Shown here: in pieces, positions 3,789-24,531 of the stretch
How the letters are laid out: each line of letters opens with the position of its first letter
Numbering within the stretch: the stretch's first letter is position 1
Notes under the pieces: generated by a model
Database searches by the model: none
What the model was told of the DNA's origin: nothing
The model's input: only the letters and a program-made list of their open reading frames with translations
Virus record (IMG/VR): IMGVR_UViG_3300005841_000609
Coordinates: 1-26,399 of that record
Reading direction: 5' to 3' (one strand)
From: a virus
Length of the DNA stretch: 26,399 nucleotides
Made by a program: the position numbers and the translations under genes

Positions 3789-5730
3789 TTTGCACCGCCG
3801 CAGGAGTATGGAAGTGATTCTTCAATTCATCAAAGAATCGAACACCCAAAGATTGCACAACATCAGCTGGAATCACATATTCACCTTGTGAAAGCCTAGC
3901 AGGGATTGAATCACTCGTGCCAGTTCCAGGACCTGCTACTTGTCCTCCACGAGAATAACCCGTCCCAGAATCCCCCACTCCAACCCCACCTGCTCCAGAA
4001 TCTCCAGGTCCTGAAGTTCCAGTAGAAGTAGAGTCTCCACTTTCTCCAACTGCTCCCATTCCAGTAGATGTTCCAGGAGCACCAATAGCTTCTGCCATTC
4101 CAGAACTACCTTGTGGACCTTGATCGCCAACTGCTTGCGAAGCTGTTCCATTGTCAGTTCCAGACAATCCAAGAGCTTGAGAGATTGCAGCGATCGCTTG
4201 GGCTAATGCAGATTGTGGAGGAGTAACTCCAGTGATTGACTGAGTAGCATTAATTGCTGCCATTCCAATTGGACCAACAACTGCACTCATCGTTGCATTT
4301 CCAACTGCATTACCAATAGCATTCCCAACTGCTACGGATTGTGCAGGATCGATGGAATTGATTGCTGAAGTATTTGATTCTTGACCAGGACCAGAATCAA
4401 GAGTGAGAGGACCAAAAGTTAATTCATCCTGTCTACGACCAGGATTTAATGCTGCACGAGGAGATTGAACTGCTTGATTTTGCTGTGGCTGTAAAGGATC
4501 GTACGTGGGAGCAGAACTTCTACGACCACCACCAGAACGAATAATGCCACCATCAGCATATGTACCAGCTTTATCTTCACGAAGTGCATTAGTTTTTCTG
4601 GGATTAACGCCAGAGTCTAAATCTTTTGGATCAATCACAAGAACAACTGCAGCTTGGTTTCCTGAACTGGAACCTTTTACTGCATCAGAACTTAAACCAC
4701 CACCAGTTCCACCAGATTTAACTGGACCTTTAGTTCCAACTTTCGGTTCAACCCTGCCACCATCCGCATAAGCTTGTGGAGTTCCAGGAGCATTAACTGG
4801 ACCTTTAACCACTCCACCCATTGGATAGTCCCGGTTATCATCCATTTCCCAGGATGCATCAAGTGGATCATCGGGAAAATCACCATCATTAGATAATTTC
4901 TTCTCATCACGACCAACTAAACCACCATCTGCCATTCCAAAGAAGCCAGAAATGTCATCAAGAGGAATATCTCCTGCAACATTTCCGCCAACATCCCCAA
5001 CAATGTTACTTCCTACATCACCAAGCAAATCTCCTGCTGAGCCGCCAGCATCTAAGAAACTTCCAAAGCCACCACCAATATCAGAAGCAGAGCCAAAGTT
5101 GAAGCCTGCATCAGTAAATTGAGCCGGGGCCCCAGTATCAAAACCTACTCCAGGATTGAAGTCAGGTCCAATAATCGGAGCGGCTGCATCACCTGTTCCA
5201 AACACTGAATCCAGAGCAGATTTTCCTTTGTTCAGAATTCCTTTCCCCGTATCAGAACCTAGCAATTTTGAACCGAGTTGAAGAATGGCAAGATTCTGCG
5301 CTGCCTTTCCAGTGTTCGTGCCACTAGTTTGATCAGTACGTTTATTTCCACCTGCAATTCCTTGTGCTGCTTGGAGTTGCATCTGTTGATTATTCTGCTG
5401 CAGTTGAGCAGTCCGATCTGCCGCTTTCATCACGGTAGATTCAAGTAACTTACCAAGAGCAGTAGAAACTGCAGAATTGTTACCAGTCCTAGCACCGATA
5501 GAATTACTAAGCCCAGCAGTGAGACCTGGAATTTGCCCACCAGCTTGTGTAAAAATGCTCTTAAGCACGTCATTATAGTTAGTTCCTTGAAGATTGCCAA
5601 GGATACCAGATAATGCACTGGTGTCAGAAGTGGTAGTGCTGGAAGATTTCTGACCCCCAAGTAAATCAAGCAAGGCTGAAACACCTTGCAATCCACTATT
5701 ATCAACTCCAACACGTTTTGGATCAGCCAT
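3778..5730 (-). CDS. Gly/Ser-rich virion protein with DGG repeats and GTSDSIPA C-terminal motif
   Basis: A 650-aa low-complexity protein rich in Gly, Ser, Ala and Gln. Residues 1-170 carry helical Gln-rich stretches. The middle has repeated ADGG elements at about 267-270, 322-325 and 392-395, each followed by V, I or L and a basic or polar segment. Residues 440-590 are Gly/Thr/Pro-rich. The last ~59 residues hold SRGGQVAGPGTGTSDSIPA followed by RLSQGEYVIPADVVQSLG. The DGG and GTSDSIPA-LS-GEYVIPA signatures are known from tape-measure and internal virion proteins of many tailed phages. AGGAG precedes the ATG. It overlaps the transglycosylase gene downstream by 11 bases. A virion role is likely; the exact function is unknown. 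Confidence 0.75.
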   Translation of the reverse strand: MADPKRVGVDNSGLQGVSALLDLLGGQKSSSTTTSDTSALSGILGNLQGTNYNDVLKSIFTQAGGQIPGLTAGLSNSIGARTGNNSAVSTALGKLLESTVMKAADRTAQLQQNNQQMQLQAAQGIAGGNKRTDQTSGTNTGKAAQNLAILQLGSKLLGSDTGKGILNKGKSALDSVFGTGDAAAPIIGPDFNPGVGFDTGAPAQFTDAGFNFGSASDIGGGFGSFLDAGGSAGDLLGDVGSNIVGDVGGNVAGDIPLDDISGFFGMADGGLVGRDEKKLSNDGDFPDDPLDASWEMDDNRDYPMGGVVKGPVNAPGTPQAYADGGRVEPKVGTKGPVKSGGTGGGLSSDAVKGSSSGNQAAVVLVIDPKDLDSGVNPRKTNALREDKAGTYADGGIIRSGGGRRSSAPTYDPLQPQQNQAVQSPRAALNPGRRQDELTFGPLTLDSGPGQESNTSAINSIDPAQSVAVGNAIGNAVGNATMSAVVGPIGMAAINATQSITGVTPPQSALAQAIAAISQALGLSGTDNGTASQAVGDQGPQGSSGMAEAIGAPGTSTGMGAVGESGDSTSTGTSGPGDSGAGGVGVGDSGTGYSRGGQVAGPGTGTSDSIPARLSQGEYVIPADVVQSLGVRFFDELKNHFHTPAAVQNGK

Positions 5731-5748
5731 GTTAACTCCTGAATTTCA

Positions 5749-6315
5749 TCAATTTTGAAGGAATAACGGGGAAATGTGCATGTAGAATCCCCCAGTCCCT
5801 AATCCAAATCCTGTTGCTTGGATGATAGTTCCAGCAGCAGCAGGTCTTCCAAACTGAACATCTCCATTCGTAGAGAGATAGTAATAGTGCCCGAATGTAG
5901 TTCCACCAATTCCTGCAGAATACCCTTCAACTAGCACTACTTCTCCAAAGTCTCCAGCATTGATGCCAAGTGGATTGTTTACAATTCCGTGCGCAGGCTT
6001 TGTATTGTCTGTAGAATCCGCATATCTTCCTGCAATTTTTCCACTGCTGAGATAGAGATTGATCATCTTGCCATAAGCAAGCGTCACTCCATCTGCAAGA
6101 ACATAAATCTTTCTGTGATTCTGAGTGAGCAATGTGGAGAGTTGATTCTGTGCAGACATTTCTGCCTGATCAAAACTCACATTCCCTGTTTGAACAGAAA
6201 CGCCCTTTGCTAGGGCATTCATGGAAAGATAAAGTGGCTTGACTAATTCAAAGTCCTTATTCGGGAGGCCGGAGGGTAACTGAGGTAGCCCTGTAGTTAT
6301 ATTGAAGTCTGGCAT
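5749..6315 (-). CDS. Small fiber/decoration-like virion protein, 188 aa
   Basis: The first ~95 residues include a polar, helical segment (FDQAEMSAQNQLSTLLTQNHRKIYVLADG). The rest is beta-rich and glycine-rich: short strands alternate with Gly/Asn turns (GKIAGRYADS, HGIVNNPLGINAGDFGEVVLVEGYSAG, YYYLSTNGDVQFG). That pattern resembles the small trimeric beta folds of phage fibers and DUF2190-type decoration proteins, but the resemblance is only of pattern. The gene lies between the nozzle-like gene and the Gly-rich virion gene with gaps of 8 and 18 bases. AGGTGA precedes the ATG. A structural role is likely; the fiber assignment is tentative. Confidence 0.6.
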   Translation of the reverse strand: MPDFNITTGLPQLPSGLPNKDFELVKPLYLSMNALAKGVSVQTGNVSFDQAEMSAQNQLSTLLTQNHRKIYVLADGVTLAYGKMINLYLSSGKIAGRYADSTDNTKPAHGIVNNPLGINAGDFGEVVLVEGYSAGIGGTTFGHYYYLSTNGDVQFGRPAAAGTIIQATGFGLGTGGFYMHISPLFLQN

Positions 6316-9648: not shown

Positions 9649-10260
9649 TTAGATTTTAACCGTCAAGTGAGACTCAACAAGCATTTGTTTAAACGCTTCG
9701 ATTTGAGTGATATTCACTTGTTGTGCAATTTCTTGGTATCCAGATCGCATCCAAACGATTGCTGCAGCCCACATTGCTAAATCTTCTTTGTATAAATCTG
9801 CAATCCAAGAAGCGTATGCAATAGGGCCAGCAACTACTGGATTCTGGAAATAGTAAAACTGGAGTTTTCCAGTGTTAGTAATGCTACGGATTCGGAGAGT
9901 GTTTCCAAGTAGAGTATAGACACTTCTCTTCAAACATCCTTCATTGTCCCAGAAATTTTTGTAGTCATCCACATACTCTAGAAACTCTACAGGAATCAAC
10001 GAAGTTGCATCTAGAGACTGCAATGAATTCGGAGTTCGAAGATTACTGGTGAGAGTGTAGATATTTGGGATGTCTACAAAAATTTGCCCACTTGTGTAGG
10101 GAGTATAAGTCAGTGGAATATTTGCTTGGTCACGGGAAAAGAAATCAACTTGGTGAGCACGAAGAGTAGCCATGCGAATTGCAGTGTTAGTCAATTCCAC
10201 CAGCTCAGGTCGCTTGGTGTAGATATTGACTTGCGCTTGCATATCTGCAAAAGTCGTCAT
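9649..10260 (-). CDS. Head-tail adaptor-like protein, 203 aa
   Basis: The N-terminus is helical with RPELVELTNTAIRMATLRAHQVDFFSRD at residues ~18-45; a beta-rich middle (YTSGQIFVDIPNIYTL) and a helical C-terminus (EDLAMWAAAIVWMRSGYQEIAQQVN) follow. That order (helical bundle, beta insert, C-terminal helix) and the size fit the adaptor ring between portal and nozzle in short-tailed phages (T7 gp11 or P22 gp4 type). It is placed between capsid genes and tail genes, as expected. GAGAAG precedes the ATG at a normal distance. The family is inferred; it could be another connector protein. Confidence 0.6.
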   Translation of the reverse strand: MTTFADMQAQVNIYTKRPELVELTNTAIRMATLRAHQVDFFSRDQANIPLTYTPYTSGQIFVDIPNIYTLTSNLRTPNSLQSLDATSLIPVEFLEYVDDYKNFWDNEGCLKRSVYTLLGNTLRIRSITNTGKLQFYYFQNPVVAGPIAYASWIADLYKEDLAMWAAAIVWMRSGYQEIAQQVNITQIEAFKQMLVESHLTVKI

Positions 10261-13364: not shown

Positions 13365-13634
13365 TTATTCTCCAGTAAGTTCAGATTGAGGAATAACAAG
13401 TTCGTCCATGAGTTCTTCAAGGACTACGAGCTTAGCTTTGACTCTCTCCAGATTGAGGAAATTCACCTCATAACTAACTTCTGGATCGAACTCAAAACTC
13501 ACTACCATTTCTGCATAGTCTGCAACTTTATTTTGCAGGTACGCTTGATTGTAAATATTAATACACCTACCTGCGTTAAGCTCTCCTTGTTCTAGATGAA
13601 GTTTTGAAAATCTACTACCCATTGGTCTCGGCAT
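13365..13634 (-). CDS. Unknown 89-aa protein between portal and scaffold
   Basis: Acidic, helical C-terminal half (NLERVKAKLVVLEELMDELVIPQSELTGE) with a beta-like middle (EMVVSFEFDPEVSYEVNFL). The ATG at 13634 overlaps the portal stop by one base (TAATG) and has GGAG upstream, so it is translated with portal. An in-frame Met at residue 5 is possible but has a worse site. Family unknown; a small head-assembly factor is the obvious guess from position. Confidence 0.65.
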   Translation of the reverse strand: MPRPMGSRFSKLHLEQGELNAGRCINIYNQAYLQNKVADYAEMVVSFEFDPEVSYEVNFLNLERVKAKLVVLEELMDELVIPQSELTGE

Positions 13635-15673
13635 TATTGTACTCCGGGTCCTGCATCACCACCAGGTTCTGGAGGAGTTGCATTTTGTGCCATTGATGTT
13701 GCTTGGAATTGTTGAAGGAACTGTTGTTGCTGTTGGGGGTTGCGTTTGAAGTCTTTGAGCCAGCTTCCTCCTTTGAGTTGTGTCCAGTAAATAAACATTC
13801 CAACAATATCGTACTCAGTCATGAGAACTGGCATTGCTTGCGCGGTTTGCAAAAACACTGTCATCAGGTCCGGACTGAGGATTTTATCCATAGGCAACAT
13901 TCCATCTGTCACCTTGAAATTCAACATCGAATCTCGAAGTTTGACAGGGTCAACATTGACTACAGTTTCATTGCCTCGATTGAAAATCGGACCAGGTTGT
14001 TGATTGAGTAAGACATTAGTCTTCAGAATTTCCTTCACAGGAGTCATGAATTGGTGCTCAATCGTAATGCTCGAGAGCTGTTGCCTAGCAGAACTATTCT
14101 GCATCGTAGTATCAAATTCTGTCTTGGTTTTATTGCCCTTCTGGAACTGACCACGATCAACTTTGTTCTGCCCAGATGCTACATCTGCCATCCCAGAAAT
14201 CATTTCTGACATCTGGAGATTGGTTCCCATGTTGTCTTCACGGTAAGGAATTTGATACAGCGCTTTGCCAATGTCTTCTCCCTTGAATTGTGAAGCATTA
14301 CGGAGAGGAATGCGAGCTACTGCTGCTGCAGGATCGATATCTTCCTTGTTGATGAACTTTGCATTGTAAACAAGCCGGTCAAAGACCAACCTGCGCTTCG
14401 ATTCCAAAGAAATATTCCAAAGTGCACTGGACATATCTTGGAAGGGAAGAGATGTATCCAGCATTGACTGCGTTTGATATCCTAACCCATCTTCATTTGG
14501 CTGCATGATCAAGACAGGGAGATAATCATTTGCGGTGATGATTTCTTCTACATAGATTACATACGTCCAATTGACAATGATACCAAAGTACATTGTTGGA
14601 ATGTTTGCACCTGACCCACCCTTTCCAAAGTCTGCAGGACAGGCCCGGCAAACAAAATAGGTGACCAAGTAATAGTTTTTGTAATCAATTGCGTTGTTCG
14701 GGTTGTCTGCTCCACCAGAAATCCCAGCCCATTGCAACCAGTTCATTCCAAAGTAGGCAAATCTACCTTGTTGCATGAATGGGTTAATCATTGGAACGTA
14801 ATAGTCTGTGGCAGAATAGCCATTTCCATTAATGCCGGCCCAACCAGATTCGTAAGCTTCTTTGAGATTGGTTGTTTTACTTGGATCAAGAGATTGCACA
14901 AACCGTTTGAAGGTCATGCGATTCATGATCTTGTTCCAACCGAATGCTTCCCCCTCTTCGTGATACTTGCTTGGATCGATAGAAAGATCCATAAAGCAAT
15001 TGTATGGATCGAGAGATTCAATACAGTTGCCACCAACTGTTTGATTCTTTAACTGAGCGACTCCTGCAGTGTTTGGTGAGGTTGAAGTTGTCACCTTTTG
15101 CACTTGCTGTTTCTTCCAATGTACAAAAGCGGGGCCCCAGTTGTACTTGAACCCATTACGGAAGACTTTGATTAACTCACGAGCCCAACCGTAACGGATT
15201 GAATGTTCTCCAAACACTGCCTCGAATTGAATTGCAGCTTCCTCGTTTGCAGGATCAGCAAAGATTCCAAAGATTGGGAAAGAAGTAAGATAGACACCAG
15301 CCTGATAAGCGACTGCAGATTCAACCTGCGGCATTACAACAGGAACTGTGATGTCTTGGATTTTCCGCTTGGCGCTTCCAGCAATGAATTTTTGATAGTC
15401 TCGCAACTTTGCTGCAGTTTGATCTAGCTGCATTTGATAAGCACGATCACGAAACTCGAGCAGAGAACGAAAATCTCCAATAACTTGTTGCGAATTTTCT
15501 GCAAATCTACGAGCATATTGGAGGAAAGTAGTTCTCTGTGCAATAGTGAGAGTAGAAACTAGGGGAGAAGAAACATCTGGTGAACTCCTAGAGGGTGTAA
15601 AAGGCTGGGCCGGAGCTTTACCACCTTGCACCCAAGAAAGAGTTCCACGAGCTGAAGCAGGATTAGTAGCCAT
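13634..15673 (-). CDS. Portal protein, 679 aa
   Basis: This protein forms the ring at one head vertex through which DNA enters and leaves. It has the usual layout: a helical N-terminal part (residues 40-130), a wing/stem part with DPYNCFMDLSIDPSKY near 220-235, a long region around the central channel (SALWNISLESKRRLVFDRLVYN), and a Gln-rich helical C-terminal barrel ending in a Gly/Pro tail. The length is within the 500-750 aa range of short-tailed phage portals. It follows large terminase by 34 bases. There is almost no ribosome-binding site before ATG 15673, which is unusual for such an essential gene. The 89-aa gene overlaps its stop. Confidence 0.8.
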   Translation of the reverse strand: MATNPASARGTLSWVQGGKAPAQPFTPSRSSPDVSSPLVSTLTIAQRTTFLQYARRFAENSQQVIGDFRSLLEFRDRAYQMQLDQTAAKLRDYQKFIAGSAKRKIQDITVPVVMPQVESAVAYQAGVYLTSFPIFGIFADPANEEAAIQFEAVFGEHSIRYGWARELIKVFRNGFKYNWGPAFVHWKKQQVQKVTTSTSPNTAGVAQLKNQTVGGNCIESLDPYNCFMDLSIDPSKYHEEGEAFGWNKIMNRMTFKRFVQSLDPSKTTNLKEAYESGWAGINGNGYSATDYYVPMINPFMQQGRFAYFGMNWLQWAGISGGADNPNNAIDYKNYYLVTYFVCRACPADFGKGGSGANIPTMYFGIIVNWTYVIYVEEIITANDYLPVLIMQPNEDGLGYQTQSMLDTSLPFQDMSSALWNISLESKRRLVFDRLVYNAKFINKEDIDPAAAVARIPLRNASQFKGEDIGKALYQIPYREDNMGTNLQMSEMISGMADVASGQNKVDRGQFQKGNKTKTEFDTTMQNSSARQQLSSITIEHQFMTPVKEILKTNVLLNQQPGPIFNRGNETVVNVDPVKLRDSMLNFKVTDGMLPMDKILSPDLMTVFLQTAQAMPVLMTEYDIVGMFIYWTQLKGGSWLKDFKRNPQQQQQFLQQFQATSMAQNATPPEPGGDAGPGVQ

Positions 15674-15707: not shown

Positions 15708-17195
15708 TTAGAAAGACATTTCAATTTCGTCAGAGTGGGCTGCTTTGACTGTGTTTGAATCGTCAATATTAAACAGGTCTCGGATTAAAGTTTCTCCGTG
15801 GTGTTGAATGATTTCTTCGACATAACCAATTGGATCGATGATATCATCTGTATTGTTCACCTTTAGTGGATTCCAGTCTACGATTTGACTAATGACTAGT
15901 GAACGCACATTGGGGTGGAGATAGATTTCACCAGCTAGAACTTTCACTAAGCCTTTTTTGATACGATTATTTTTAGCTTGTCCTTTTGGACTAAGTTCGA
16001 CAAAATTGAAACCGCTAATTCCTTCGTCTTCACAGTATTTATCGAACCAGAAGAGAAGGGTACTTTGGTAAGCCACTCCCTCAACTGCGATGGTTCTAGT
16101 GTTTCTACGTAAACCGAGACTGATCGCATTCTTAATTGTTTCAAGAGGTGTGAAGGTACCATAGATGAGCTCATCAAATACCGCCTTTCCATCCATTAGT
16201 TCGTAGTGAGAGATGGTACAATCATCCCCAGATTTCTTACCGCTTGAAGGATCGATCACAATGAAACTACCTTCTCCAGCATCAACCGAAAGAAGATATT
16301 CTGGCATGTCTGGGATTTTCGTTATATCAATCCCACTAGCAAGAGCAACATCTGTAGAATTCAGTACTTCAGCAATGAAAACCTCAGGGTGCCCCATGTT
16401 TGTGTCAGACTCATACTCGTCTAAGAGTTCTTGAACTGGTCTGAGCTCTTCCCAAAGTGATTCACCCTCTGCAGTAATCCCACCAACAATGAGAGAAGTC
16501 CACTGGTTGTTATTCTTTAGCTTCTCGAGGATCGAATTCTGTGGATACATGTTGCCAACAAAGATATAAGTACAACCAAATGGGCTTCGCGCCTTCATCA
16601 GCGTGGAGAGCATCCAAGTCAGCAATGCATCAGCAAGTTCTTTATTCGGTGCATCTTCTCTTTCCTGTACGTCATCCATGATGATGACATCAGGGCGCTT
16701 ATTCTTTCTATTAATTCCTCGAACGGAAGTGCCAGCACCTGCGGCCCAAAGAATAATCTCCCTACCGCGAAAATGGAAGACCTTCGTTACTTGATTGTTC
16801 TCATCAATGTTTGCATCCCAATGACCAAAAACTCTCCGGATTCCACTTCCAGAGAGCATGTCACAGATGTCAGAGAGAATGTTTACTGCTTTCTTTTCAC
16901 TGGCTCCGATGATAAGGATGAATTGTTTGTGAGAAAAGAGGATGTACCAGACGCATGTAATTTTAATAAATGTAGTTTTAGCAAATCCCCGTGGAATGCC
17001 AATAGCAAACCTTTCAACTTTCTCTTTAAATGATGTGAGCAGCGTGAACAGTACAAGGTAGAATGCAGGGAAGTTGAACAAGAAGTCTCCTGGCATGCTA
17101 AGCATTGCCAAGAAATTGAAATCTCGTTTTGCGACTTCAGAGACTTGTTCAGTCTTGAAGGCAACTTCTTCTTGTGTGACACTCATTGTGCTCAC
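15708..17195 (-). CDS. terL: Large terminase subunit (packaging ATPase/nuclease)
   Basis: This is the DNA-packaging motor, with an N-terminal ATPase and a C-terminal RNase H-like nuclease that cuts the concatemer. The Walker A variant is PRGFAKTT at residues 68-75; Walker B is VIIMDD at 170-175. The nuclease part begins near D305 in LLSVDAGEG; GDDCTISHYELMDG and IAVEGVAYQSTLLFWFDKYC follow as further acidic sites. The length (495 aa) is usual. The first codon is GTG at 17195, which overlaps the TGA of the small terminase gene. A nearby in-frame ATG at 17186 is the alternative start, and neither has a strong ribosome-binding site. Confidence in the family is high. Confidence 0.92.
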   Translation of the reverse strand: MSTMSVTQEEVAFKTEQVSEVAKRDFNFLAMLSMPGDFLFNFPAFYLVLFTLLTSFKEKVERFAIGIPRGFAKTTFIKITCVWYILFSHKQFILIIGASEKKAVNILSDICDMLSGSGIRRVFGHWDANIDENNQVTKVFHFRGREIILWAAGAGTSVRGINRKNKRPDVIIMDDVQEREDAPNKELADALLTWMLSTLMKARSPFGCTYIFVGNMYPQNSILEKLKNNNQWTSLIVGGITAEGESLWEELRPVQELLDEYESDTNMGHPEVFIAEVLNSTDVALASGIDITKIPDMPEYLLSVDAGEGSFIVIDPSSGKKSGDDCTISHYELMDGKAVFDELIYGTFTPLETIKNAISLGLRRNTRTIAVEGVAYQSTLLFWFDKYCEDEGISGFNFVELSPKGQAKNNRIKKGLVKVLAGEIYLHPNVRSLVISQIVDWNPLKVNNTDDIIDPIGYVEEIIQHHGETLIRDLFNIDDSNTVKAAHSDEIEMSF

Positions 17196-17815
17196 AGAAT
17201 GTTAGAAACATCCATGTCTTGCCGGATGAGTTTGGGAAGTTTCCGCACCGGCTTATTTTCTAGAACCTCCAAGACTCCTGCAGCTCGTTCAACTTTCGTG
17301 ATTCCTGGAAGTTGCATGGATTTCCGGCCGGAAGTTTCTCCCCTGCGTGCTGCAAGGATTTCATCCAGTTTCGTAGCAGTAGCAGAAACCATACTCTTTC
17401 CTTCCACTTCCACAATCTCCTGTTTTCCATTCACAAGATACTGAGGAATAAGATTCACATTCAACTGGAGATTCACAACAGTCCCAATCTGTGCAGCTCC
17501 ACGATTGACACTAGTATCCTTCCTACGCTTTGCTTTGTTCAGAACTGCGAAAGCTTGCAAAGATTGCTGCAAATTTGCCAGAGGAGCTTTAGCTTCAATC
17601 CTCTCCAGAAAAGTTGCTTCTACTGCATCAATCTTATGATCGAACTCTATGTCCTCTGCAGCTTGCTGAACTTTCTTCCCTTCAAGTTCGCTTGCAAAGT
17701 CTTCGTTACTCAAAAGCTGGCTGACATATGAATCGGACACTCCAAGAGCGCTCGCCACTTGGGTGCTGTTTAATCCTTGCGCTAGCATTTCCAAAATCTG
17801 GTCTCGGGCGGCCAT
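17192..17815 (-). CDS. terS: Small terminase subunit, HTH DNA-binding
   Basis: A 207-aa protein that recognises the packaging site and brings in the large subunit. Residues ~17-35 are a clear helix-turn-helix (STQVASALGVSDSYVSQLL). A helical oligomerisation part follows (residues 50-110), then a C-terminal tail that would contact the large subunit. The start is taken as ATG 17815, with AAGGAG 5 bases upstream on the minus strand, rather than the GTG ten codons further up. It directly precedes and overlaps the large terminase gene, which is the main support for the family. It borders the origin-like divergent region. Confidence 0.85.
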   Translation of the reverse strand: MAARDQILEMLAQGLNSTQVASALGVSDSYVSQLLSNEDFASELEGKKVQQAAEDIEFDHKIDAVEATFLERIEAKAPLANLQQSLQAFAVLNKAKRRKDTSVNRGAAQIGTVVNLQLNVNLIPQYLVNGKQEIVEVEGKSMVSATATKLDEILAARRGETSGRKSMQLPGITKVERAAGVLEVLENKPVRKLPKLIRQDMDVSNIL

Positions 17816-17848
17816 GCGTGCTCCTTCACTTTCTAATTCACTCACTCT

Positions 17849-17854
17849 ATAATA
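17849..17854 (-). promoter_or_regulatory. Possible -10 element for the late operon
   Basis: TATTAT on the minus strand, at a fitting distance for a start about 27 bases before the terS ATG. No convincing -35 hexamer lies at 16-18 bases (the best is ATTTCT), so a phage activator or another promoter may be needed. Weak call. Confidence 0.25.
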
Positions 17855-17896
17855 GACTCTAGTAGGAAATTAGAAATATCACGAATTCACTGGCAT

Positions 17897-18038
17897 GAAA
17901 AAATTTTAGATTTTTTGGGGAGATGTCATATAGGATTTCCGCTTTCCTCCCCCTAAAAAGGCCCCTCCCCCACTTCGTAGTTTGTTTTGCTGAGTGAGAG
18001 TAAGTGTCATATGGTGAGTGTGGATAACGTGTGGATAA
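17897..18038. other. Candidate replication origin (DnaA boxes, G-run block, AT-rich element)
   Basis: Read on the minus strand from right to left, this holds: two perfect DnaA boxes TTATCCACA (plus-strand TGTGGATAA at 18019-18027 and 18030-18038) exactly 11 bases apart; then a block with G5, G4 and G5 runs (17949-17971); then an AT-rich stretch at 17897-17916, where 18 of 20 bases are A or T. The order box, GC cluster, AT-rich is that of bacterial origin unwinding elements. TGTCATAT also occurs twice (17924-17931 and 18005-18012). The region lies between divergent gene blocks. Origin function is inference; the boxes could instead serve gene regulation by DnaA. Confidence 0.5.
18019..18038 (-). 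promoter_or_regulatory. Tandem perfect DnaA boxes
   Basis: Two copies of TGTGGATAA (TTATCCACA on the minus strand) at 18019 and 18030, separated by CG, in the same direction and one helical turn apart. A third, degenerate unit (TGTGAGTGC) begins another 11 bases on at 18041. This is the strict consensus for DnaA, conserved across bacteria. Two exact tandem copies within 20 bases are unlikely by chance. Confidence 0.8.
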
Positions 18039-18077
18039 TGTGTGAGTGCTGTTACATTGTAAAGATGTAGATAGCAC

Positions 18078-18105
18078 TTGCAAGATTGAATGGGTGTGCT
18101 ATAGT
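18078..18105 (+). promoter_or_regulatory. Sigma70-like promoter with extended -10
   Basis: TTGCAA at 18078-18083, 16-base spacer, TATAGT at 18100-18105 preceded by TGC (extended -10). Predicted start near 18112, reading into the 36-aa leader ORF and the rightward gene block. It lies 40 bases right of the DnaA boxes. Confidence 0.55.
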
Positions 18106-18137
18106 TGAGTCATTGATAACTACTGAGTGAGTGCAGC

Positions 18138-18248
18138 ATGGTTTCTATCTGGCATATCGACTTCCCTGACTACGAATTGCGACTTGCAATGATGTCACAA
18201 CAGGCAATGGTATGGATGCATTTTGGTTGCGATTTACACCTTGTGTGA
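18138..18248 (+). CDS. Possible 36-aa leader peptide
   Basis: An ATG 33 bases after the -10 element opens a 36-codon frame (MVSIWHIDFPDYELRLAMMS...) that ends at TGA 18248. A GAGTGAG stretch upstream could serve as ribosome-binding site but is not strong. It has no recognised motif. A hairpin and a second promoter follow it, so it may be a leader ORF rather than a functional protein. Low confidence. Confidence 0.3.
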   Translation: MVSIWHIDFPDYELRLAMMSQQAMVWMHFGCDLHLV

Positions 18249-18271
18249 GTAAAGAATAGAGAATACATACC

Positions 18272-18294
18272 TAGGGCACTATATTGGTGCCTTA
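18272..18294 (+). other. Hairpin after the leader ORF
   Basis: TAGGGCAC and GTGCCTTA pair over 8 bp (one G-T) around a 7-base loop. No T-run follows directly, only AAAATGTATTTT, so this is a weak terminator at best. It could be an operator or a leader attenuator hairpin upstream of the next promoter. Confidence 0.35.
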
Positions 18295-18312
18295 AAATGT
18301 ATTTTCCCGCAT

Positions 18313-18333
18313 GTGTGATACAATAAATCACAC
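18313..18333 (+). promoter_or_regulatory. Extended -10 promoter inside a perfect inverted repeat (operator-like)
   Basis: GTGTGAT (18313-18319) and ATCACAC (18327-18333) form a perfect 7-bp inverted repeat around a 7-base centre. TGATACAAT (18316-18324) inside it is an extended -10 element. There is no good -35. A protein bound to the repeat would block this promoter directly. The repeat looks like a CRP half-site pair, but the spacing between TGTGA and TCACA is 9, not 6, so another dimeric regulator is more likely. Confidence 0.45.
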
Positions 18334-18367
18334 GATCTTTTGTTCCCTCAACTCTTTGGAGATTACA

Positions 18368-18979
18368 ATGGCTATTCGTGTTCACACTTCTATCATTTCC
18401 GCCGCCGCGATTGTTGCGGTTGGGGAAAAGCTGGTTTCCGCAAAGTGGAATGAAACAACGAAGCAATCGAAGAGAGAAGTTGCTGTTGTTCTTCCGATGG
18501 AAAATCTCGTTGCACCAGAAGTTCCTGAGAGTTTCCGCGCTTTGGTGGAATCTGCTCTCTTGTCTCAAGCTGAAGCAACTCTCAAGACTTTCTGCGCTGA
18601 AAATCCCAACAGTTTCGAGATCGATGAAACGATGTTCGATCGGCCGAATTTGGTCGAGAGTTTCATGAATCGCGGTTCGTTGTGGCTCGGCAAGAAAGAT
18701 TTGGAGATTGCATTTACCAGTTCGGCGACTTGGAAGCGAATTGCTTCTCGGCCGGAATTCAGTTCAAACAAAACATATCAAATGGTTGCAAATCGATTCA
18801 AGGAAACAATTCTCAAATTGTCTGGAAAAGCAACTGTGATTTCTCCTGATGATTGCGATGCGATTCTGTCGAAGATCGAAGATTCCGATCTGGAAACTCA
18901 GTTCGGAGAATTCGTTGTCAGTCGACTGGAATCGATGAAGAACCGAAAACAAGAAAAGATTGACTTCGATTCTCTCTGA
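18368..18979 (+). CDS. Unknown early protein, 203 aa
   Basis: First sizeable gene of the rightward block. The start is ATG 18368 with GGAG 6 bases upstream; an in-frame ATG at 18311 lies inside the promoter palindrome and is not used. The N-terminus is hydrophobic/Ala-rich (ISAAAIVAVGEKLV) but too short and polar for a firm membrane call. The middle and end are helical and charged (RFKETILKLSGKATVISPDDCDAILSKIED), ending KIDFDSL. It may be a distant relative of the 232-aa protein at 24904: both have an aspartate-rich centre, a W-K helix, a polar helical end, and a D-x-x-x-L tail. No function is recognised. Directly behind a regulated promoter, it is probably made early and in quantity. Confidence 0.75.
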   Translation: MAIRVHTSIISAAAIVAVGEKLVSAKWNETTKQSKREVAVVLPMENLVAPEVPESFRALVESALLSQAEATLKTFCAENPNSFEIDETMFDRPNLVESFMNRGSLWLGKKDLEIAFTSSATWKRIASRPEFSSNKTYQMVANRFKETILKLSGKATVISPDDCDAILSKIEDSDLETQFGEFVVSRLESMKNRKQEKIDFDSL

Positions 18980-19046: not shown

Positions 19047-19223
19047 ATGTACGAAATCTATTTCGACAATTCTGAAATCATTGATGCTACTGGAATTCGT
19101 ATGTGTCTCTGTCCAGATTTTCAATCAGCCATTGCAGTTTACGATTCTCTCACTCGTCGATTCTGTTGTGTCAATCTCTACGATTCTAAAGGCGATTTGA
19201 TTCGTAAGCACACAAATTTGTAA
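19047..19223 (+). CDS. Unknown 58-aa protein
   Basis: ATG 19047 with GGAG 5 bases upstream, the same leader style (TTGGAGATT) as the 203-aa gene. The protein (MYEIYFDNSEIIDATGIRMC...) is a beta-rich small domain with four Cys residues in two clusters (MCLC and FCC), ending KHTNL. Metal binding is possible but not shown. No family recognised. Confidence 0.65.
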   Translation: MYEIYFDNSEIIDATGIRMCLCPDFQSAIAVYDSLTRRFCCVNLYDSKGDLIRKHTNL

Positions 19224-19602
19224 TTTCCAATTCCCTCCGACCCGTAACGTGTAACACGTACCAGATTCCCCCTCCCCTCCCTCTGGCCCTCTTAACCCCT
19301 CACCTATTCTTTCCTATCTATTCCCCTATCTCTCTATTAGTCTATCTATCCTCTACACTGATTTTAAAGAGTTTTAATTCTTTGTTTGTATGAATCTCTT
19401 TAAAATCAAAGTACCCCCTCAAAAAATCCAACGCACTATGAGGGATACCATCCTAATACAGAGAACACACATAGGAAGGATGGAATAGGGAAGAGGGGAA
19501 TAAGAACACAACAATACATGACAGGGAAGGGGAGGAGTAAGGAGCACACCCCCATTTCGGTACGTGTTCCGTGTTACAGGTCAATCAGTAAAGGAAACTA
19601 CA
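19224..19602. repeat. Gene-free region: imperfect long inverted repeat with pyrimidine/purine halves
   Basis: No gene is seen in this stretch. The left part (about 19261-19356) is strongly pyrimidine-rich (C and T runs); the right part (about 19470-19550) is purine-rich. The outer ends, 19244-19262 and 19559-19577, match as inverted repeats at 16 of 19 bases. An inner TATTCCCC (19319-19326) pairs with GGGGAATA (19495-19502) in the same ungapped register. Between these two matches the arms agree only about as well as composition alone would give. A perfect 13-bp stem (19359-19371 with 19396-19408, 24-base loop, TGATTTTAAAGAG) lies 27 bases left of the overall centre. The left outer end is itself a near-palindrome (ACGTGT-A-ACACGT). 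Function unknown. Confidence 0.7.
19359..19408. repeat. Perfect 13-bp inverted repeat, 24-base loop
   Basis: TGATTTTAAAGAG and CTCTTTAAAATCA are exact reverse complements. Neither side is followed by a T-run, so it is not a usual terminator. Each arm carries a -10-like TAAAAT on one strand. It is the strongest local symmetry in the gene-free region. Confidence 0.8.
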
Positions 19603-20049
19603 ATGAATGACACAGACATTAATGACTATGATTTTAATCCAGACTATTTTGTTCCGAAAATGGTTGATCGAAGTCTTGATATTTCCATCCTTCGTGACTT
19701 ACCTGAGATTGTGAAATCAACCTGCAAGAAACTTCATTCTGAAGGCTGGAGGTTCTACTTTGTCAAACAACAAAGAGGCAGATGCTATTATCGTGCCAAA
19801 GTAATCACATTGCCATCTTGGGCAATGAAAAGAGAAAGAACATATAAAGCCTGGTATGTAGCACATGAGTGTAGTCATGCATTGGTGGAAAGAGAAATCA
19901 GTAGAATTAGGCCGCATGGAATTGAATTCATGGAGCAACTGAAACTCATTTGCCCAAGTGAGTGCATCATTCACGAACTAGAATACAAACCACGTAATGC
20001 AGCAATGGCAGGAATCGGACAAAAGAAATACACATTCGATGATCTTTGA
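19603..20049 (+). CDS. SprT-like zinc metallopeptidase
   Basis: A 148-aa protein of the SprT/Spartan-like family. The zinc site is clear: HECSH at residues 88-92 (HExxH, with the catalytic E89) and the third ligand H105 in RPHGIEFMEQL, the family's HGxxF signature 13 residues on. Cellular Spartan degrades proteins crosslinked to DNA; the role of phage SprT-like proteins is not established. This copy ends soon after the active site and lacks its own C-terminal zinc ribbon. The start is ATG 19603 with AGGA upstream; a longer GTG frame reaches into the repeat region and is rejected. It is followed by a separate Cys-rich gene 29 bases on. Confidence 0.8.
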   Translation: MNDTDINDYDFNPDYFVPKMVDRSLDISILRDLPEIVKSTCKKLHSEGWRFYFVKQQRGRCYYRAKVITLPSWAMKRERTYKAWYVAHECSHALVEREISRIRPHGIEFMEQLKLICPSECIIHELEYKPRNAAMAGIGQKKYTFDDL

Positions 20050-22624: not shown

Positions 22625-22823
22625 GATTGAGAAAGTAGTCGAACACATTCATGAAAAGCTGTACTGGTATTTTGATAACATGCCAGAAGCAAACAAAGAA
22701 CTTATTCGTAAAATCATCGAAGAACTCCTAACCTACTATGAACAAACTCAAACTCCAGGAACTCCTAGCCAAAGCGAAAGCAAACCACCAGCTGAGGAAC
22801 TCCGCAATCCCTACGACGAGTAA
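22605..22823 (+). CDS. Unknown 72-aa helical protein in a nested overlap
   Basis: ATG 22605 has a strong AAGGAGG upstream and overlaps the end of the 369-aa gene by 20 bases. The helical part (LEIEKVVEHIHEKLYWYFDN...LIRKIIEELLTYYEQ) is followed by a Pro/Ser-rich tail and an acidic end. Its last 86 bases are also read by the helicase gene in another frame. It could be a small helicase or polymerase partner, by position only. Confidence 0.65.
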   Translation: MELPQLEIEKVVEHIHEKLYWYFDNMPEANKELIRKIIEELLTYYEQTQTPGTPSQSESKPPAEELRNPYDE

Positions 22824-24531
22824 TTCTGGACTAAATGGCCACATTCCGGCCCCCGGTCTCACAACCCAAATAACTCGGCATGTTCTAACTGCTGATTCTT
22901 CATTCCACAAAACCATTCCAGGATTTGAATACAATGAACGGCAAATGGAAGCGATTGAACTCGCCATGCGTGCGAAGTCATTTAACCTTATCGGAGCGGC
23001 TGGTACAGGCAAGACAACGACAACTAGAGAAGTTATCGGGCAACTGGTTAAACTTCCACACATTAGTCCGCTCCAAGAATCCACGAAGTGGCTCAGTAAA
23101 GAATCACCTGGCATCGTTGTCATTAGCTTCACTAACAAAGCTGTTAACAATCTCAAAAAGTTCCTTCCAGAAGAACTAAAACGACACTGCCTCACATATC
23201 ACAAACTCCTCCAATACGAGCCAGTAATCTATGAACTCGAACCAGGAAATCCAGCAGGAAAGAAAACAATGCGCTTTGAACCATCGTTCACTGCGTCTAA
23301 CCCTTTACCTCATATTTCTTGTATCATTGTGGAAGAGTCCTCAATGGTCGCTTCTGAACTCCACGATGTTCTACTCGATGCTTTGCCTAATCCTGCTGCT
23401 ACTCAATTTATTTTCCTGGGTGATCTTAACCAACTTCCTCCAATTTTTGGCCCTAGCATTCTAGGATTCAAACTTCTTCAACTTCAAACGGTGGAACTTA
23501 CCCATGTGTATCGTCAAGCCCTTGAAAGTCCGATCATTACACTTGCCCACAAAATCAGGGAGGGTAGAGGTTTTTCTGACTCGCGTGGGAGAAATTCATT
23601 GTCGATTGAAGGTTTCGTCGACGATCGAGGAGAACATGGAAAGGTCACAATCCACCCATGGAAAAAGAAACAAGAAAGTGGCAATGCGTGCAAGGTAGCA
23701 CAGTTGTTTCTGATTAAGTTGATTCAATCAGGAAAATACAATGTCGACGAAGATATCATCCTTTGTCCGTTCAATAAATCCTTTGGAACTCTTGAACTCA
23801 ATAAATCAATTGCAGACTATCTCGGGAAGCAGCGAGATGCTGAAGTGTTTGAAGTTATTGCACGCTACCAAAAATCATATTGGGCGGTTGGAGACAGAGT
23901 GCTTGTTGATCGAATGGAGGCTAAAATCACGAAGATCGAAGCTACTCCAGGCTATTCTGGTCCGATACCAGAAAGATCTTCAAAGACTCTTGATCGCTGG
24001 GGCCGTGATGCAGAATCTTATAAACCAGGAGATGAACTGAGTGCAGTAGATGCACACAATATTCTGGATTCTCTAGTTGTAGGAGGAAATGGTGATGGAG
24101 AAGAACAAACTAGGAATAGTGCAAGTCACACCATTACGATTGAGTTTATTGACACTGGAGCTAGTCGGTCCTTTTCAGACGCGGGAAACATTAACCAGAT
24201 GCTTTTCTCGTATGTTCTCACAGTACATAAAGCTCAAGGCTCCGAGTGGAAGCGAGTATTCATACTTCTCCATTATTCACACAACTCAATGCTATCTCGC
24301 GAACTCCTTTATACTGCAGTTACCAGAGCGAGGCAAGAGCTATTCATCATTTGCGAGCCAGATAAGGGAGAAATCTATAATTCGATTACACGAGCAGCTA
24401 AAAGTCCTGAAATCCATGGAGTAACTTTGCAAGAGAAAGCACAATACTTCCTGAGAAAGAAGGAAACAATGGTCAAGAAAGGCCGAGTGAGTAAGTCTGA
24501 TCAAGAAGAACTGGAGTATGAAGATGCTTAA
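22738..24531 (+). CDS. SF1 DNA helicase, Dda/RecD2-like
   Basis: A 597-aa ATP-driven helicase of superfamily 1B. Motifs in order: Q-motif FEYNERQMEAIELAM (63-77), Walker A GAAGTGKTT (86-94), motif Ia IVVISFTNKAV, motif II IIVEESSMV (196-204), motif III FLGDLNQLPP (226-235), motif IV ELTHVYRQ, motif V LTVHKAQGSEW, motif VI LLYTAVTRAR. Motif II has Glu-Glu where most relatives have Asp-Glu. A ~150-residue insert between IV and V includes an SH3-like segment (YWAVGDRVLVDRMEAKI), as in RecD2/Dda. The first 60 residues, partly read over the previous gene, are polar and may be dispensable. Probable role: replication fork or recombination. It is cotranscribed with its neighbours; the ribosome-binding site is weak. 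Confidence 0.9.
   Translation: MNKLKLQELLAKAKANHQLRNSAIPTTSNSGLNGHIPAPGLTTQITRHVLTADSSFHKTIPGFEYNERQMEAIELAMRAKSFNLIGAAGTGKTTTTREVIGQLVKLPHISPLQESTKWLSKESPGIVVISFTNKAVNNLKKFLPEELKRHCLTYHKLLQYEPVIYELEPGNPAGKKTMRFEPSFTASNPLPHISCIIVEESSMVASELHDVLLDALPNPAATQFIFLGDLNQLPPIFGPSILGFKLLQLQTVELTHVYRQALESPIITLAHKIREGRGFSDSRGRNSLSIEGFVDDRGEHGKVTIHPWKKKQESGNACKVAQLFLIKLIQSGKYNVDEDIILCPFNKSFGTLELNKSIADYLGKQRDAEVFEVIARYQKSYWAVGDRVLVDRMEAKITKIEATPGYSGPIPERSSKTLDRWGRDAESYKPGDELSAVDAHNILDSLVVGGNGDGEEQTRNSASHTITIEFIDTGASRSFSDAGNINQMLFSYVLTVHKAQGSEWKRVFILLHYSHNSMLSRELLYTAVTRARQELFIICEPDKGEIYNSITRAAKSPEIHGVTLQEKAQYFLRKKETMVKKGRVSKSDQEELEYEDA

Follow-up and report, generated by a model that had tools for sequence, protein, structure and literature searches.

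A gene-free region in the genome of an uncultivated phage folds into a single long hairpin, the position and plan of which recur in deeply diverged relatives. The window (the whole 26.4-kb stretch of DNA that was analysed, 26,399 nt, taken from an IMG/VR record) is a fragment of a tailed phage, an unclassified podovirus. We propose that the hairpin region is a cis-acting DNA element conserved in this clade and, tentatively, that its most likely role is that of a replication-origin or early-control region. It is probably a previously undescribed DNA signal; no description of such a hairpin element was found in the literature searched.

Late genes of the window are on the minus strand and early genes on the plus strand. 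The closest annotated relatives are the podoviruses Polaromonas phage Tiera, EBPR podovirus 3 and the PaP2 group, with a portal identity of only 24–31%; the podovirus clade to which the window belongs is thus a distant relation of Tiera and of Pseudomonas phage PaP2. The features of the window that bear on the hairpin are the following.

13634–15673, minus strand: portal gene, late module
15708–17195, minus strand: large terminase gene, late module
17192–17845, minus strand: gene for an HTH protein, small-terminase-like, marking the end of the late module
18019–18038, minus strand: pair of perfect DnaA boxes, TTATCCACA, that lie 11 bp apart within the gap between TerS and P222, 1.2 kb from the hairpin
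18371–18979, plus strand: P222, a conserved gene of ∼202–205 codons that adjoins the hairpin in relatives
19224–19602, no strand assigned: gene-free region of 379 nt with the long imperfect hairpin (ORF survey, folding and shuffles)
19240–19262, plus strand: left outer arm, tandem units CGTAAC-GTGTAAC-ACGTACC
19264–19350, plus strand: left strand of the long stem, rich in pyrimidines and including CCCCCTCCCCTCCCTC at 19268–19283
19359–19408, plus strand: central AT-rich hairpin with a perfect 13-bp stem inside
19412–19436, plus strand: TACCCCCTCAAAAAATCCAACGCAC, by eye the counterpart of a C-run/AACGCAC core in L007, L009, L024 and L081
19440–19540, plus strand: purine-rich right strand of the long stem, with AACAATA at 19510–19516
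19559–19581, plus strand: right outer arm, pairing with the left
22738–24531, plus strand: Dda/RecD2-like SF1 helicase gene, early module

No gene fits into 19224–19602, which bears out the preliminary description of some 380 bases without a gene. The gap is bounded by open reading frames at 19047–19223 (+) and 19603–20049 (+), and the longest stop-free run in six frames across 19151–19660 is 68 codons, part of which is a flanking gene. The second of these reading frames, right after the hairpin, encodes a homologue of SprT-like metallopeptidases (Pfam E value of 1e-4, under the curated cut-off). The gap folds into one imperfect hairpin of ∼350 nt. The inverted match of 16 out of 19 bases first reported for its outer ends is exact (19244 against 19559), and a longer register, 19240–19262 with 19559–19581, pairs at 19 of 23 positions compared with at most 18 in 100 block shuffles; the perfect 13-bp stem was found at 19359–19371/19396–19408. 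The reported pyrimidine-rich left and purine-rich right sides are likewise present (42% C and 34% T in the left half, 40% A and 26% G in the right part), and the most extreme pyrimidine and purine 100-nt blocks of the window both fall here.

Folding places the whole gap in one hairpin on either strand, with energies for the entire 379 nt well below those of shuffled sequences (RNA minimum free energy z = −8.4 on the plus and −7.8 on the minus strand; DNA z = −4.8). To allow for the opposite pyrimidine and purine bias of the two halves, a strand-neutral hairpin score was compared with shuffles within 30-nt blocks, which preserve local composition and with it this bias. The hairpin scored 67 against 36.7 ± 6.3, a value that none of 200 shuffles reached and that is the maximum in a scan of the window; a hairpin in coding sequence near 9.95 kb scored 59. 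The latter, the second-best of the window, is a 51-nt inverted repeat (73%, 31-nt loop) at 9953–10085 within a minus-strand structural gene. Scored without its outer arms, the window hairpin reached 45 against 36.0 ± 5.5 and was equalled in 12 of 200 shuffles; since this is only marginal with respect to composition, the inner complementarity is partly the pyrimidine/purine bias itself. The outer stem is thus certain, and the inner stem of this one genome rises only marginally above composition. What exceeds composition is not confined to the 13-bp stem, and the hairpin is present in relatives; the original observation is confirmed and had been understated.

In related loci, retrieved by portal similarity, a hairpin occupies the corresponding site beside P222, with the terminase module on one side and the early genes on the other, in contigs whose portal proteins are 57–68% identical to that of the window. 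The gene order of the window (P222, hairpin, early genes) is found in L009, L012, L007, L024, L081 and L070; in L031, L046, L073, L079, L050, L083, L084, L090 and L091 P222 is reversed yet still next to the hairpin. A contig from the same metagenome (L003, portal 89% identical) has the left arm with changes, GTAACACGTAGCACGTACC; a near-identical contig (L002) adds no comparison. The position and plan of the hairpin are kept in these genomes while its sequence has diverged almost completely, with a mean column identity of 39% and no convincing alignment. The hairpins are therefore too diverged for covariation counting and each sequence was scored singly. Among the 14 aligned loci, 13 score above their block shuffles, 12 of them with 0/200 and L007 with 1/200; the hairpin of L050 is cut by the contig end. 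Of two further loci, L090 gave 0/200 and L091 a weak 16/200. These loci are partly non-independent, L031, L046 and L073 being close to one another, as are L090 and L091.

The shared plan begins with tandem units of 6–9 nt in the outer stem, of which both the unit and the period (7, 8 or 9 nt) vary by lineage, both arms changing together: CGTAAC in the window, ATGTAGC in L009 and L024, ATGTATC in L012, TGTAACAT in L031, L046 and L073, CGTGACA in L070 and a TGGCAA-like unit in L084. The array is weaker in the window (three degenerate units) than in L031, L070 and L024. Inside it, a stem in which a C/T-rich strand often faces an A/G-rich one leads to an AT-rich centre flanked by C- or G-runs, often ATACCCCCCTAT or its complement. 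Scored alone, the inner stem rises clearly above composition in three loci only (L081, L024 and L046), and it falls short of significance against block shuffles in L009, L012, L079 and L084. The motif AACAATA/TATTGTT occurs in 14 of 24 arms, compared with 2.2 expected and a maximum of seven in 1000 shuffles. The close trio L031, L046 and L073 holds too few changes for a count of compensatory substitutions; by eye, repeat cores are kept and spacers vary without pairing. Conservation of the element in position and plan is well supported by these comparisons. Such an architecture, retained while the sequence turns over, is missed by homology searches.

Many contigs of these phages appear to end close to the hairpin. 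Those of L003 and L050 terminate within it, and P222 lies no more than 340 nt from a contig end in G004, G012, G013, G017, G020, G032, G034, G037 and G038, the hairpin side being inferred for some of them. Such ends would be expected of a hairpin that hampers sequencing or assembly or differs from strain to strain, and the hairpin may explain why many contigs stop here. Positions 1–45 of L050, where the contig ends inside the hairpin in a G-run/GCGC stretch, look like an assembly artefact.

The nearest cultured relatives, Tiera and PaP2 (Fredfastierviridae; portal identity of 27–31%), differ with respect to the hairpin. In Tiera (OQ067478) the equivalent gap, a gene-free stretch at 43391–44172 that is the largest early/terminase gap of this genome, contains at ∼43613–44085 an inverted repeat whose arms measure 23 nt (87%). 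The right part of the repeat contains a tandem duplication of ∼70 bp (Tiera 43929–44074, corresponding to L102 19930–20075). The fold of the whole element is weaker than elsewhere (RNA z = −3.3, DNA z = −1.1) and Tiera is therefore a probable, not a certain, member of the hairpin class. The words 'hairpin' and 'intergenic' are absent from the main text of the Tiera paper (PMC9959647). Over 24–43.8 kb of PaP2 the same hairpin score reached a maximum of 52, and no comparable element was found there. Neither phage has P222, which is also absent from EBPR podovirus 3.

The reading that we prefer, an origin or early-control region, is one that we infer, because it rests on position and architecture. 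The outer arms, as inverted arrays of short tandem repeats, resemble protein-binding sites of the iteron type. A phage-encoded initiator or loader, for which P222 is one candidate, joined in some members by host DnaA, might bind these arrays. The AT-rich centre would then melt, and during the loading of replication proteins the hairpin could arise either on the strands so exposed or as a cruciform. In this scheme the binding of proteins, the activity as an origin, the cruciform and a part for P222 are all conjectural. With respect to the features of an iteron-type origin, a tandem short-repeat array is present at one locus, and an AT-rich centre that could serve as the unwinding region is present in the window and its relatives. 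P222, found in 27 of 41 records, is a candidate for the initiator gene, although it shows no recognisable DNA-binding domain and gave no family, structure or fold match (Pfam, PHROGs, PDB sequences, and AlphaFold2 with Foldseek against PDB and BFVD); its AlphaFold2 model is mostly helical with a mean pLDDT of 85.

DnaA boxes are close by in some members: the window has three matches compared with 0.94 expected, and L090 and L091 each have a pair of boxes in inverted orientation on the P222 side of the hairpin, ∼200 nt from it and before P222 is reached. Pairs of strict boxes near the hairpin are present only in the window and these two loci, most other loci having none. GC skew showed no consistent flip at the hairpin between genomes and was dropped as evidence for an origin. 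The gap at 17846–18370, which holds the paired DnaA boxes of the window, is another large gene-free stretch (525 nt, upstream of the small-terminase-like gene), and its motif AAAAAGTTTAGAAA..GGGGA..TGTCATATAGGATTT..CCCTAAAAAGGCCCCTCCCCC is kept in relatives. The suggestion in the preliminary description of a second origin is thus the one that best fits the late/early junction, the tandem-repeat stems, the AT-rich centre and the nearby boxes of some members, but it is unproven.

Iteron-type origins such as phage lambda ori with its O protein and P1 oriR with RepA similarly have short tandem repeats by an AT-rich stretch in the early or replication region, and the DnaA boxes near some hairpins add to the likeness. 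Here, however, the units are 6–9 nt long and form two inverted arrays, ∼200–300 nt apart, that pair with one another, and no known initiator was identified. In the terminal hairpins of parvoviruses (AAV), tandem Rep-binding repeats sit within the stem of an extended foldback, a similar arrangement of short repeats; the present element differs in being internal to the genome of a double-stranded DNA tailed phage, and no HUH Rep was recognised among the proteins scanned. The mycobacteriophages Alma and LadyBird have RNA-based prophage origins, with a non-coding RNA expressed next to parABS (PMC7157519). These are also gene-free phage segments of a few hundred base pairs, required for replication or maintenance, whereas in the present case neither parABS nor an RNA signature was seen. 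A bolder version, rather unlikely as matters stand, is a phage origin of an undescribed kind: a foldback of 200–450 bp built on paired inverted arrays of short iterons, with hairpin- or cruciform-dependent loading and P222 as a new initiator or loader. If this were true, sequence would drift freely while fold and repeat architecture are kept. How DNA replication starts is known for few tailed phages beyond a small set of models; a conserved and easily recognised cis element makes the question testable, and Tiera is a cultured candidate with a version of it.

Control of early promoters without any origin is somewhat unlikely as the sole function. The inverted arrays would then be operators for a phage or host regulator of the flanking promoters, with the palindrome aiding looping or cruciform-dependent regulation. 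At L007, L081, L031, L046, L079, L083, L084, L090 and Tiera the best early-side σ70-like site begins with TTGACA and is directed away from the hairpin (TTGACA-16-TATAAT after the inverted repeat in Tiera). These nine sites score 9–12 of 12, the score-9 cases L007 and L090 not being significant alone (P of ∼0.1). In genomes of the L031 type P222 and the helicase are divergent around the hairpin, which the helicase gene directly adjoins in L031, and in L031 and L046 a TGTTACA unit overlaps, by eye, the −10 element of the helicase promoter. However, no such promoter is found in the scanned flank of the window, L009, L012 or L024, and operators leave the long inner palindrome, the C/T-rich strand and the conserved AT-rich centre unexplained.

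A structured non-coding RNA transcribed across the element (a regulatory or decoy RNA, a primer RNA or a substrate of RNase III) appears quite unlikely. Fold energies are far below those of shuffles on both strands (z of about −8 in the window; RNA z of −4.8 in L009, −6.6 in L012 and −4.4 in L007). P222 and the downstream gene are co-directional in the window group, and the lack of an outward promoter in the window, L009, L012 and L024 makes read-through from P222 possible in that group. The structural RNA suggested at the outset is possible to this extent, but other support for it is missing. Rfam gave no match at the gathering score and only chance matches for the region at E ≤ 5, and no promoter that could delimit such an RNA was seen; since nine loci have a TTGACA site beyond the hairpin, their early transcript would start outside it. 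An RNA under selection would over-represent G–U pairs; G–T mismatches are not above composition (52 observed, 64 expected from that of the arms) and A–C mismatches, the wobble pair of the other strand, are only slightly so (88 compared with 78), and there is therefore no clear RNA signature on either strand.

It is very doubtful that the complementarity is maintained by template switching or inversion between the arms and not by selection on structure. Quasi-palindromes are known to mutate by template-switch correction, and AACAATA/TATTGTT is flipped in L031, L046, L073, L050 and L084 relative to the other loci, as arm-mediated inversion could yield, but this leaves unexplained why the element recurs at one position and persists in genomes with few other gaps, and why it has tandem repeats and a conserved motif and centre. 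The remnant of an inserted MITE-like element, to which terminal inverted repeats around a non-coding core bear a superficial resemblance, is hardly credible and this early suggestion finds no support: the position is conserved across deeply diverged phages, not scattered, no relative with an empty site was found, the arm patterns match only the same two contigs with no copies elsewhere, and searches of 50,697 phage and 72,556 plasmid records gave no significant match at the DNA level.

A distant phage from a marine Rhodospirillaceae MAG (L116, portal 28%) carries ATAGGGGGGTATAGG and AATAGGGGGGTCTAT with inverted repeats at 5715–6100, ∼4 kb before its portal gene, which is possibly the same element.
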